Below are positions 11,838 to 26,735 of a DNA stretch of 64,000 nt, piece after piece. The position numbers and the translations under genes were made by a program. A model generated the notes under the pieces. It was not told the origin of the DNA, did not search any database, and saw only the letters and a list, made by a program, of their open reading frames with translations. The stretch's first letter is position 1; every line of letters begins with the position of its first letter. This DNA comes from a bacterium (GTDB taxonomy: Bacteria; Armatimonadota; Fimbriimonadia; Fimbriimonadales; Fimbriimonadaceae), in NCBI GenBank assembly GCA_027483535.1, contig JAIXUN010000003.1:558001-622000 (forward strand), written 5' to 3'.

Positions 11838-12767
11838 TTGTTTCGCGATTTTTTCGATCAATTTAACGCACTGACCTTAGGTCAGCGAGTCGTCCATGCG
11901 GTCGACGTCTTGATCGTTGCATTCATCATCTACCGATTGCTCCTGCTCGTTCGCGGAACGCGGGCCTGGCGGATTCTGCTCGGCGTAGGCGTTTTCCTAA
12001 TTGTCTTGCAACTCAGCGAGGTGATGAATCTCGGCACGCTCCACTGGATTCTGGAGAAAGCCACTCTCCTTGGTCCGGTCGCGTTGGTCATTCTCTTTCT
12101 GCCGGAGCTTCGTCAGGCCATTGAAGGGCTCACCAAACTCGGGTTCATCCCCCAATCTTTTGTCGAAGTCGGTCACGAGGCAACGCTTGAGAGACGCACG
12201 ATCGAAGAGATCGTTGCCGCCGTTGGAGAAATGGCGCAGGACCACGTTGGCGCGCTGATCGTTTTGGAAACGGGCGCGAACCTAGATGAGATCGCCAACA
12301 ACGGAGTTCAGCTCAACGCAAAGATTTCGAGTTCGTTGCTCTCCTCCATCTTTTACGGTCAGAACCCGCTGCACGACGGTGCGGTCATTCTAAGGGGGAA
12401 CTTGGTCATGGCGGCGGCTTGTCGACTTCCCTTAAGCGAATCCTCGCGGTTAGACAAAACTTTGCACATGCGTCACCGGGCGGCGGTGGGTGTTTCCGAA
12501 GAGCTCGACGTCTTGGCGATCGTCGTTTCAGAAGAGCGGGGAACGATCTCCGTGGCTCGGGCGGGCAAACTCAACCGTCTCGCCAGCACGGTGGAACTGC
12601 GCGAAGTTCTCCTTCAAGAACTCGTTGATTCCGAGCGAGAATCGAAAGAGAAGAAGAATCACAAGAACGGAAAACCGACTAACGGCAAATCTCGGTCGCG
12701 GAAAGGCAAAGATCGGGAAGAGGTCGAGGCAACGGTCACGCTTCCCGGCGTGGAGGGACGCCCATGA
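11838..12767 (+). CDS. cdaA: Diadenylate cyclase CdaA (c-di-AMP synthase)
   Basis: This 309-residue protein has hydrophobic segments at about residues 22-40, 44-60 and 75-92, then a DAC domain with the catalytic DGA triad at 180-182 and RHR at 212-214. It makes cyclic di-AMP from two ATP at the membrane. A basic Lys/Arg-rich tail follows residue 275. The start is a TTG with AGCAGGG just before it. It overlaps the YbbR-type regulator gene in an ATGA junction, as in the classic cdaA-cdaR operon. A c-di-AMP riboswitch lies 14 kb downstream. Confidence 0.95.
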   Translation: MFRDFFDQFNALTLGQRVVHAVDVLIVAFIIYRLLLLVRGTRAWRILLGVGVFLIVLQLSEVMNLGTLHWILEKATLLGPVALVILFLPELRQAIEGLTKLGFIPQSFVEVGHEATLERRTIEEIVAAVGEMAQDHVGALIVLETGANLDEIANNGVQLNAKISSSLLSSIFYGQNPLHDGAVILRGNLVMAAACRLPLSESSRLDKTLHMRHRAAVGVSEELDVLAIVVSEERGTISVARAGKLNRLASTVELREVLLQELVDSERESKEKKNHKNGKPTNGKSRSRKGKDREEVEATVTLPGVEGRP

Positions 12768-13723
12768 AAAAGATCAACTGGCCCCTCGCAATTTCCTCGC
12801 TCCTCACTTCCATCATCATCTGGAGCATTGTCTTTAGCCAAAACTCGCGGCCTCAAGTTGGGCGAGTCTATTCGCTAAAGGTTCAGCCGAGCGGTCTGAC
12901 TTCTGACCTTGTGCCGACCAAGTTTCCCGAAACCGTCACTGTGTCCGTTCAAGCAACAGAGAATCAGCTCAAGCAACTCGGGAATGTCGAGCCCTACGCC
13001 GTTGTCGACCTTACTCGCGCGACGGAAGGGAGCCGGGCGTATCCCGTGCAGGTTTTCCCAACCAATTTCCGCGAGTACGTCACCGACGGAATCCTTTCTG
13101 CGAGAGTGGATATCGAGCAGGTGATCTCCAAGAAGGTCCCCGTGGTCATTGAAACCAAGGGCGAGCTCACCGACCTCACTTTGGGGCTAGATCGAATGGT
13201 TGCCGATCCGGCCTCAGTGACGGTCAAAGGTCCACGGTCAGAAGTGGAAGGTGCGATTCTGGTGAGAGGATTACTCGATCTCTCCGTCGTTCAGGCTGGT
13301 GGAGGCAGGTCTTATCTGGCTCCGCTAGAGGCCCTCGGTGAAAAGCGTCGACCGCTTCCAAACGTCGCCACCGAACCCCTCTTTGCTCGTGTGAGCGTGA
13401 CTTTGGGTTCCGCACCGGAAACTCGCCAGGTCGTGGTTTCGCCAGACGTGCGGGGTCGACCAGGTCGCGGATTCCTGATTGATGAAGTGCAGTTTGAGCC
13501 GACCCAAGTGATGGCGAAGGGCTCCAGCATGCTCATCGCTAAATTGCTCAACATCAACACCCAGCCGATCGATATCGAGGGCATTACCGAGACGAAGCAG
13601 TTTGTGCGCACGTTGAAAGTACCGGAGGGAGTTCGAGTGATCGGAACCTCCGAGGTTCGTGTGACGGTAAAGGTGAAAGCGGTTGTCCCTCAAGATTTGA
13701 ACGGTTCGGGTGAAAATCCTTGA
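12764..13723 (+). CDS. cdaR: YbbR-like domain protein, probable CdaA regulator CdaR
   Basis: The 319-residue protein has a short cytoplasmic N-terminus and a membrane helix (residues 7-25, WPLAISSLLTSIIIWSIVFS). A series of extracytoplasmic YbbR-like beta repeats follows, for example KFPETVTVSVQATENQLKQL, DRMVADPASVTVKGPRSEVE and FEPTQVMAKGSSMLIAKL. In Firmicutes CdaR binds and modulates CdaA. The ATG overlaps the cdaA stop, and the gene's stop overlaps the TTG of the next gene, so the three form one coupled operon. Confidence 0.9.
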   Translation: MKKINWPLAISSLLTSIIIWSIVFSQNSRPQVGRVYSLKVQPSGLTSDLVPTKFPETVTVSVQATENQLKQLGNVEPYAVVDLTRATEGSRAYPVQVFPTNFREYVTDGILSARVDIEQVISKKVPVVIETKGELTDLTLGLDRMVADPASVTVKGPRSEVEGAILVRGLLDLSVVQAGGGRSYLAPLEALGEKRRPLPNVATEPLFARVSVTLGSAPETRQVVVSPDVRGRPGRGFLIDEVQFEPTQVMAKGSSMLIAKLLNINTQPIDIEGITETKQFVRTLKVPEGVRVIGTSEVRVTVKVKAVVPQDLNGSGENP

Positions 13724-25564: not shown

Positions 25565-25691
25565 AAGCGTCAATCTCGATACAGTCGAATCCGAGCGACG
25601 CTCGGAACGGGGGACCCACATTGGGGGCGTATCGCGAATTTCGCGAAGGATACTTTCGGTCCTAGCCCGGCAGCTAACCTCGTAGACGCAT
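25565..25691 (+). promoter_or_regulatory. c-di-AMP riboswitch (ydaO/yuaA motif)
   Basis: The segment carries the conserved parts of the ydaO/yuaA aptamer in order. The 5' strand GCGTCAATCTCGAT is at 25567, then a small hairpin CCGAGC/GCTCGG at 25591-25605. The hallmark GGGGGACCCA follows at 25609-25618, then a GCGAATTTCGC hairpin near 25634. The highly conserved CAGCTAACCTCGTA is at 25671-25684. Closing P1 pairs GCGTC 25567-25571 with GACGC 25685-25689. Downstream, GGAACC/GGTTCC (25700-25717) forms a hairpin just before a strong AGGAGGT ribosome site at 25734, so control of translation is likely; no T-tract is seen. Known members sense cyclic di-AMP. Confidence 0.93.
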
Positions 25692-25745
25692 CGGAAGTTG
25701 GAACCGACGATGGTTCCCCTGACCCGCAAACGCAGGAGGTGTTGT

Positions 25746-26090
25746 TTGCTCACATTGCAGAAACTACAACAGAAGGTGGAAGAAACCCGGACCGGCTCCG
25801 AGGGTGGACTCTCCAAAGTGCGCCGCTTGTTGCGCCTGGAACGGCAGATGAAGGCCCTCTCGACCCACTTTATGGACGAGGGATTCAAGGCGCACCACTT
25901 AGGACAAGAGGCTCAGAAAAAGCACTTTTGGAACGCCTCTGCAAACGTTTTGGCGGTTGCCGAAAAGTGCCGCCGATACGCTCGTGAAGCACTTCAAACT
26001 CAGCCCCGGCGGCTCACGTTTGGCTACACCCCTCAGAAACAAGCCGTCCCACGTTGGGAACGCGGTCGAAGGGATCTGAAGAACGGCTAA
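25746..26090 (+). CDS. Small protein of unknown function under the c-di-AMP riboswitch
   Basis: I do not recognise this 114-residue protein. It is basic and almost all helical, with coiled-coil-like repeats (LQKLQQKVEETRTG, VRRLLRLERQMKALSTHFM) and an Ala-rich helix (NASANVLAVAEKCRRYAREAL), then a Pro/Arg-rich tail. No signal peptide or membrane helix is seen. The TTG start is chosen because AGGAGGT ends 5 bases upstream; an in-frame ATG at 25710 would put the riboswitch expression hairpin inside the gene. It is followed 9 bases later by trpG/pabA, so both are probably riboswitch-controlled. Confidence 0.72.
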   Translation: MLTLQKLQQKVEETRTGSEGGLSKVRRLLRLERQMKALSTHFMDEGFKAHHLGQEAQKKHFWNASANVLAVAEKCRRYAREALQTQPRRLTFGYTPQKQAVPRWERGRRDLKNG

Positions 26091-26099
26091 AATGGCTCC

Positions 26100-26735
26100 G
26101 TGACCTCGTTTGAAGCGGTGGGCGATTCGCCTTCCATCCTGGTGATAGACAACTACGATTCTTTTACCTACAACCTTGTTCAATACCTTGGACGTTGTGG
26201 GGCAAGAATCACGGTGTTGCGCAACGACGAGGTCACCACTCAGAAAATTGCCGAGATGCGTCCCAAGGGCATCATGCTCTCACCGGGGCCTTGTACCCCA
26301 ATGGAATCGGGCGTTTGTTTGGATGTGATCGCGGCGGCACTGGCTAAACAGGACGGCTTTCAGTTCCCTATCTTTGGTGTCTGTCTTGGGCACCAGGCCA
26401 TTGGGCAAGTAGCGGGCGGGATCGTACGTCAAGCCGAGCGAATCATGCACGGCAAGGCTTCGGCCGTGGAGCACGACGGCAAGGGACTCTTCGAGAACAT
26501 GCCCAATCCGTTCTCGGCGATTCGGTACCACTCGCTGGTGGTAGATCCGCAAACCGTGCCCCAAGGATTCCTTGTGACGGCAAGGTCTACCGACGATCAC
26601 GAAATCATGGGTCTGCGGCACGAGTCCCTCCCGATCGAAGGGGTTCAGTTCCACCCAGAATCGGTCATGACCGAACAGGGCTTTACGATCGTGGAGAACT
26701 TTGTGAAGTGGGTTCGGACTATTTCGGCTCTTTGA
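26100..26735 (+). CDS. Anthranilate / aminodeoxychorismate synthase component II (glutamine amidotransferase)
   Basis: The 211-residue class I glutamine amidotransferase opens with ILVIDNYDSFTYNLVQYL. It has the oxyanion segment LSPGPCTP, the nucleophile elbow FGVCLGHQAIGQ and the His-Glu pair in VQFHPES. It supplies ammonia to TrpE or PabB for tryptophan or folate synthesis; which one cannot be told, so no symbol is given (trpG or pabA). GTG start at 26100. It follows the riboswitch-controlled small gene by 9 bases and overlaps the convergent membrane-protein gene by 17. Confidence 0.93.
   Translation: MTSFEAVGDSPSILVIDNYDSFTYNLVQYLGRCGARITVLRNDEVTTQKIAEMRPKGIMLSPGPCTPMESGVCLDVIAAALAKQDGFQFPIFGVCLGHQAIGQVAGGIVRQAERIMHGKASAVEHDGKGLFENMPNPFSAIRYHSLVVDPQTVPQGFLVTARSTDDHEIMGLRHESLPIEGVQFHPESVMTEQGFTIVENFVKWVRTISAL

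Follow-up and report, generated by a model that had tools for sequence, protein, structure and literature searches.

A full-length c-di-AMP riboswitch lies directly upstream of a gene for a small basic protein within the 64,000-nucleotide stretch of bacterial DNA analysed here (henceforth the window), and sequence comparison across genomes of the host order indicates that this small gene is very probably its real target. Our best explanation as a whole, to which we give a probability of roughly 0.75, is that positions 25573–26090 form a c-di-AMP-responsive mRNA leader with a small basic three-helix protein as its conserved target, in a small-protein regulon acting on c-di-AMP signalling. In the mechanism we propose, c-di-AMP made by CdaA would bind the aptamer and alter translation of the small gene, and the pabA/trpG gene behind it would be carried along in the same transcript. 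The protein itself would be part of a small-protein regulon, some of whose members are paired with Tad1-like proteins and which may buffer c-di-AMP or relay it to other targets. The features of the window on which this explanation draws are the following:

11838–12767, forward strand: cdaA, diadenylate cyclase (PF02457, DAC, E = 5.6e-39; PF19293, CdaA_N, E = 5.8e-8)
12764–13723, forward strand: cdaR, with YbbR repeats (PF07949, E = 8.1e-19, 3 stretches)
25573–25702, forward strand: c-di-AMP riboswitch aptamer (ydaO/yuaA), full length, from cmscan, with the same site in the whole-genome search
25703–25745, forward strand: putative expression platform, from alternative pairings
25734–25739, forward strand: ribosome-binding site AGGAGG of the small gene, from the sequence
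25746–26090, forward strand: small basic protein P0001, 114 aa, seed of alignment A1 of riboswitch-linked homologues
26100–26735, forward strand: pabA/trpG, class-I glutamine amidotransferase (PF00117, E = 3.9e-58)

The riboswitch and its linkage to the small gene

An Rfam scan (cmscan) identified a single riboswitch in the window, a match to RF00379 with a score of 70.9 bits against a gathering cut-off of 38 (E = 2e-14), covering model positions 1–134 of 134 and not truncated. A complete aptamer with intact signature blocks had already been described by the sequence-only reading, which named this same covariance model, and both the full-length match and the conserved blocks (GGGGGACCCA at 25609 and CAGCTAACCTCGTA at 25671) bear it out. 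P1, which it described as closed, is closed by three standard pairs; the fourth pair of the model, at the outer end of the helix, is non-standard. The only other non-standard pair of the aptamer is one of the two in a short internal helix. By eye, P1 can be extended by C25582-G25688 and by 25577–25580 with 25690–25693, passing over a bulged A and an A-C mismatch.

Full length, with its conserved blocks and placed in a 5' leader, the window riboswitch is an ordinary member of the known ydaO/yuaA class. The usual targets of this class, according to the available text of PMC7266159, are K+ and amino-acid transporters, wall remodelling and the osmotic response; the window genome departs from this, in that neither of its two RF00379 sites has a gene for K+ or osmolyte transport immediately behind it. 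The second site, at C1:1565166, lies before hisB-hisH (see below). As had been noted from the letters, cdaA and cdaR are in the same window, and CdaA, encoded by the only DAC gene found in this genome, is the presumed source of c-di-AMP.

Across 113 genomes of the host order RF00379 occurs at no fewer than 137 sites in at least 84 genomes, 136 of the 137 scoring above the gathering threshold and one (L199) below it. All 137 were taken with up to ~5 kb downstream, and the family was built from the ORFs found there. When P0001 alone was searched against the 113 genomes, five other matches were obtained at E < 0.001 (G079, G084, G083, G082 and contig C26 of G009), and all five are behind an RF00379 site, with the profile matches beginning 56–63 nt after it. 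Of the weaker rows (E = 0.001–0.01), G025:C63 is behind a site and G071, G061, G095 and G077:C28 are not. The A1 profile, made of 28 rows from riboswitch-linked sequences only, was also run over the whole genomes. It returned 59 rows, and leaving out 23 with E > 0.003 as chance-level gave 36 matches at E ≤ 4.2e-4. Thirty-one of these lie within 1500 nt behind a same-strand RF00379, 30 directly (22–109 nt behind, in 29 genomes) and one as the second copy of a tandem. This fraction is biased upward because A1 was built from linked sequences, a bias that does not affect the five out of five obtained with P0001 alone. By comparison, the 120-nt stretches that follow the 137 sites together make up about 2e-5 of the total sequence (taking 3.1 Mb per genome). 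The 29 genomes span two taxonomic families of the order, and homologues behind the same riboswitch, which the sequence-only reading had proposed to look for, are present in other genera. Neither of the results that this reading had named as refuting it, no covariance-model hit above threshold or an unconserved small ORF with a distant larger gene as the target, was obtained. In a search of 291 genomes from the phylum, the matches listed placed the family in the host order only, bar one weak match (E = 1.7e-4).

At the five A1 matches lacking a linked riboswitch, no RF00379 was found in the surrounding 2.5–2.7 kb even at E ≤ 1; the protein therefore does not need the riboswitch. Two related small genes follow one riboswitch at four loci (L067, L135, L164 and L198), the first gene of L135 being a weak match (E = 0.039).

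A family of small basic proteins

The small ORF of the window has 114 codons, starts with TTG and is preceded by the AGGAGG listed above. Its product is strongly basic, with a pI of 10.8 (family median 11.0, 38 sequences), and the AlphaFold2 model (pLDDT 85, lower in the C-terminal ~25 residues) predicts helices at residues 4–16, 21–51 and 55–85. A C-terminal F-x-Y-like motif, in some cases with a following W, is common to 7 of the 38 family sequences, P0001 among them. For codon positions we compared pairs of close relatives of P0001, not P0001 itself. Four pairs gave 10/5/29, 22/10/38, 18/11/36 and 5/5/22 changes at positions 1/2/3, and a fifth, with two changes only, 0/1/1. Because the changes fall mainly at third positions in four of the five pairs, the relatives are real proteins under purifying selection.

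The 114-residue basic helical protein had been read as one of no known family, and the database searches agree. P0001 gave no Pfam row at E ≤ 1 and one NCBIfam row of 10.5 bits against a cut-off of 351, while 28 family members reached at best E = 0.0074 in Pfam and 0.012 in NCBIfam, each in one member and none near the cut-off. The PADLOC/defence-family library yielded no row for P0001 and three weak rows for single members; in PHROGs its best E was 0.083, with no fitting family. The target family of the window riboswitch is, then, new to the libraries searched.

Structure searches with the P0001 model retrieved common helical bundles. Foldseek gave no significant relative (E ≥ 0.25), and the best Z from VIA, 10.9, is within the range that the tool gives unrelated helical bundles. 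When the A1 profile was compared with solved structures it hit designed coiled-coil proteins, 8qae scoring best (E = 2.1e-6, over four repeats), which we took as shared helical composition. The fold is thus a generic helical bundle; Acb2 and Tad1 are absent among the structure-search matches listed, which excludes neither. The A1 profile hit 9 PDB sequences at E ≤ 1, none of them named Acb2 or Tad1, and in hhalign its match to the Tad1-like group c10 had a probability of 0.2%. Profile comparison of the window family with other small families found behind the riboswitch showed c35 to be related (92%). Two others, c13 and c24, were considered as relatives and rejected at 2.3% and 1.7%, neither being significant.

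Tad1-like and other genes behind RF00379 sites

The first gene downstream of the 137 sites belongs to the window family in 30 cases (with 4 more weak matches), to c13 in 12, to c24 in 8 and to another small ORF in 1; it is Tad1-like in 2, hisB in 20, MFS-like by eye in 8, c7 in 4 and something else in 48, these classes having been assigned partly by hand and some of the last group (e.g. L157) carrying hisB in longer ORFs.

Several of these arrangements deserve description in their own right. The 20 sites before hisB include the second site of the window genome (L099, C1:1565166–1565307). Pfam was run on this copy among the hisB sites and identified IGPD at E = 1e-63; by eye, the next gene is hisH and a terminator-like hairpin precedes hisB. 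Our literature search retrieved no publication connecting histidine synthesis with c-di-AMP, and in the available text of PMC4342826 the his operon is not linked to the ydaO motif. The small family c13 starts 35–47 nt behind RF00379 at 12 sites (L102, L114, L151, L179–L183, L187, L191, L194 and L196), and several of its members end in a PFMEYSS-like sequence. A third small family, c24, begins MSFVSQIMRKASIVERS and is followed by a Tad1-like gene in all 8 of its sites, behind RF00379 (L094, L133, L145, L154, L176, L192, L193 and L195); the small ORF of L070 is distinct from it. A gene for a sugar-type ABC substrate-binding protein (SBP_bac_1, E = 3.8e-6) is divergent beside many riboswitch or small-gene loci (L124, L141, L164, L174, L230, L233, L234 and others), some of which are followed by a c7 gene or by a gene called MFS-like by eye. 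It also adjoins three of the five riboswitch-less loci, and a similar-looking ORF was seen by eye in L231 and not matched. In L066, L090 and L104 RF00379 lies ~1 kb upstream of glmU-like genes with an opposite-strand ORF between, and in L125 and L197 it stands directly before asparagine-synthase-like genes, all these names having been given by eye.

The Tad1-like genes, named after the phage cyclic-nucleotide sponge Thoeris anti-defense 1, were aligned in two sets, A2 and A3, A2 being built from linked sequences. For the homology test a profile of 10 linked proteins was compared with solved Tad1 structures, giving E = 1.7e-11 to 8kbb and 1.3e-7 to 7uav. The window genome has a Tad1 homologue of its own, of 109 aa (G000:C1:1867648–1867911; L301 2110–2436, reverse strand); no riboswitch lies alongside, and the adjoining ORFs were named M42-like peptidase and YggS-like protein by eye. 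The model of this copy (mean pLDDT 76.9, ends under 50) had Tad1 in all of its top 20 Foldseek rows (best E = 9.7e-5, probability 1.00, 36% identity over 76 columns), the first other row being at E = 2.6; Pfam yielded nothing at E ≤ 0.01 for this protein. In PHROGs, two Tad1-like proteins hit phrog_2428, a family whose function is not annotated (E = 3.3e-14 and 1.1e-18). Like Tad1, these neighbours have the core, with 36–37% identity in structural alignment to CmTad1 and two C-terminal helices, and across 15 rows Q, G, N-G, Q, C and E-N are invariant. Unlike Tad1 chains of 123–138 residues they are only ~105 residues long, and they sit in bacterial assemblies, some of them behind a riboswitch. 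By sequence comparison P0001, the small protein of the window, is not Tad1.

At E ≤ 0.01, 68 of the 113 genomes of the host order carry Tad1-like genes; a phylum-wide search at E ≤ 1e-6 found them in 67 of 291 genomes, every one a member of the host order. From this spread we take them as probably chromosomal. Out of 78 such genes (79 rows minus one 27-residue fragment), 16 follow an RF00379 site, two of these as its first downstream gene, and 62, the copy of the window genome included, are unlinked. A small ORF precedes 14 of the 16 linked genes. At five loci (L190, L169, L158, L109 and L135) it belongs to the window family or to the related c35, at eight to c24, and at L070 it is another small ORF. 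L190 holds the best-scoring relative of P0001 (37% identity), in the order riboswitch, P0001 homologue, 24 nt, Tad1-like gene; the corresponding gap is 23 nt in L169, and in L158 the two genes overlap. In named records, 12 of 20 Tad1-like loci have a same-strand RF00379 ending 47–425 bases before the match, these 20 being a non-random part of the 31 found that comes partly from the same genomes as the 78 and so adds nothing to the count.

The available text of PMC12043709 describes Tad1 as sequestering gcADPR, cyclic dinucleotides and trinucleotides, with weak binding of cAA (c-di-AMP) in the case described and a broader cyclic dinucleotide range among homologues. Because the Tad1 proteins reviewed there sequester cyclic dinucleotides, the association of the riboswitch with Tad1-like genes suggests that the modules may handle c-di-AMP. 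A role of the small protein in c-di-AMP homeostasis or in relaying the signal is a tentative proposal. Less likely is its extension to a feedback run by the riboswitch, in which small three-helix proteins and domesticated Tad1-type sponges would together store, buffer or relay c-di-AMP.

K+ and wall genes elsewhere use c-di-AMP as a stress signal. The small protein could likewise stand outside c-di-AMP chemistry and serve in the response to osmotic or envelope stress, perhaps by binding RNA, ribosomes or membranes, with c-di-AMP simply signalling the stress, and we consider this a serious competitor with somewhat less than an even chance of being right. The strongly basic character of the family would suit such a protein, as would the position of some members beside the divergent sugar-type binding-protein gene and of two riboswitch-linked members (L110 and L141) before an MFS-like gene identified by eye. 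Sites in other genomes also precede various enzyme and transporter genes (by eye). Against it, the repeated pairing with Tad1-like genes, which follow a small ORF in 14 of 16 linked cases and the window family or c35 in five, points to nucleotide signalling, though as an association only.

Mode of control, pabA/trpG and the wider picture

The way in which the riboswitch would act on the small gene was approached through its leader. In the minimum-energy fold, UCCCCUG (25715–25721) pairs with CGGGGGA of the aptamer core (25608–25614), and an alternative partner, read by eye in this one sequence, is CAGGAGG (25733–25739). One could thus picture the ligand locking the aptamer and freeing UCCCCUG, which would then mask the ribosome-binding site and turn the gene OFF. 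The fold of the window leader is not better than that of its shuffles (z −0.85), and the computed opening of the leader's ribosome-binding site hardly differs between full leader (0.64) and platform alone (0.70). For the family we folded 27 sites (the 30 directly linked ones minus two near-duplicates and L158), and at 19 of the 27 the Shine-Dalgarno was freer in the isolated platform than in the complete leader. Computed pairing between Shine-Dalgarno and aptamer was not above that with shuffled aptamers in the same set (site free 0.408 vs 0.403), nor was it across families. Since shuffled aptamers give the same value as real ones, the difference between platform and full leader comes from length, and it was rejected as evidence that the aptamer sequesters the Shine-Dalgarno, which would make an ON switch.

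The start codons of the 30 directly linked genes are 21–108 nt behind the aptamer, and a 5–6 base Shine-Dalgarno match is present in 29 of the 30, the starts having been picked for it. The short distance and the strong Shine-Dalgarno, allowing for that choice of starts, suggest a translational switch, and control is probably exerted mainly at translation. We lean towards the ligand switching the small gene off, mainly by analogy with how other members of the class behave; the opposite sense, ligand switching it on, is a possibility to which we give rather poorer odds.

The pabA/trpG gene starts at 26100, 9 bases past the stop of the small ORF and on the same strand, with the amidotransferase domain that the sequence-only reading had named there. 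It is the sole TrpG/PabA-like gene found in the window genome, two other matches being only 27% and 30% identical and belonging to open frames of 378 and 514 aa. The tight spacing and the lack of a second copy would both fit a scheme in which the riboswitch physiologically serves pabA/trpG, the small ORF acts as a leader coupling translation into it and c-di-AMP tunes folate or tryptophan synthesis. Yet by tblastn (E ≤ 1e-5) the gene is downstream of the riboswitch on the same strand at 1 of the 137 sites, that of the window, one further match among the loci being 5 kb away on the opposite strand. The small family, by contrast, recurs with many different next genes and its relatives are under purifying selection as proteins, making this scheme improbable. 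As pabA/trpG follows the riboswitch in the window alone, we regard it as a neighbour and not as a conserved target, a role that the comparison of loci does not support: in itself a PF00117 glutamine amidotransferase, it is no conserved partner of the riboswitch and is probably a co-transcribed passenger here. The earlier proposal that the riboswitch controls both genes thus stands for the small gene, whose family recurs behind it, and not for pabA/trpG as a conserved target. It is equally improbable that the linkage is historical, with small genes hitch-hiking with a mobile riboswitch leader that acts on whichever gene comes next; the diversity of next genes (48 of 137 sites in the unclassified remainder) and the family members without a riboswitch would agree with that, but the 30 direct placements in 29 genomes of two taxonomic families and the purifying selection on relatives speak against it.

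K+, osmolyte and wall genes are prominent among c-di-AMP riboswitch targets in the available text of PMC7266159. Our literature search found no paper on a c-di-AMP riboswitch in Armatimonadetes and no published report linking Tad1-like proteins to this riboswitch. The small gene in its c-di-AMP-responsive leader, which remains our preferred explanation, points to an unstudied arm of signalling by c-di-AMP, a messenger whose known regulons come chiefly from Firmicutes and Actinobacteria, and it supplies work on c-di-AMP with a defined, testable protein family. A small-protein regulon partly paired with Tad1-like genes would suggest that hosts control sponge-type nucleotide binders by a signal that these may bind. 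If this is true, the sponge fold of phage anti-defence would be part of normal second-messenger homeostasis, and phage counter-defence and host housekeeping could share an origin.
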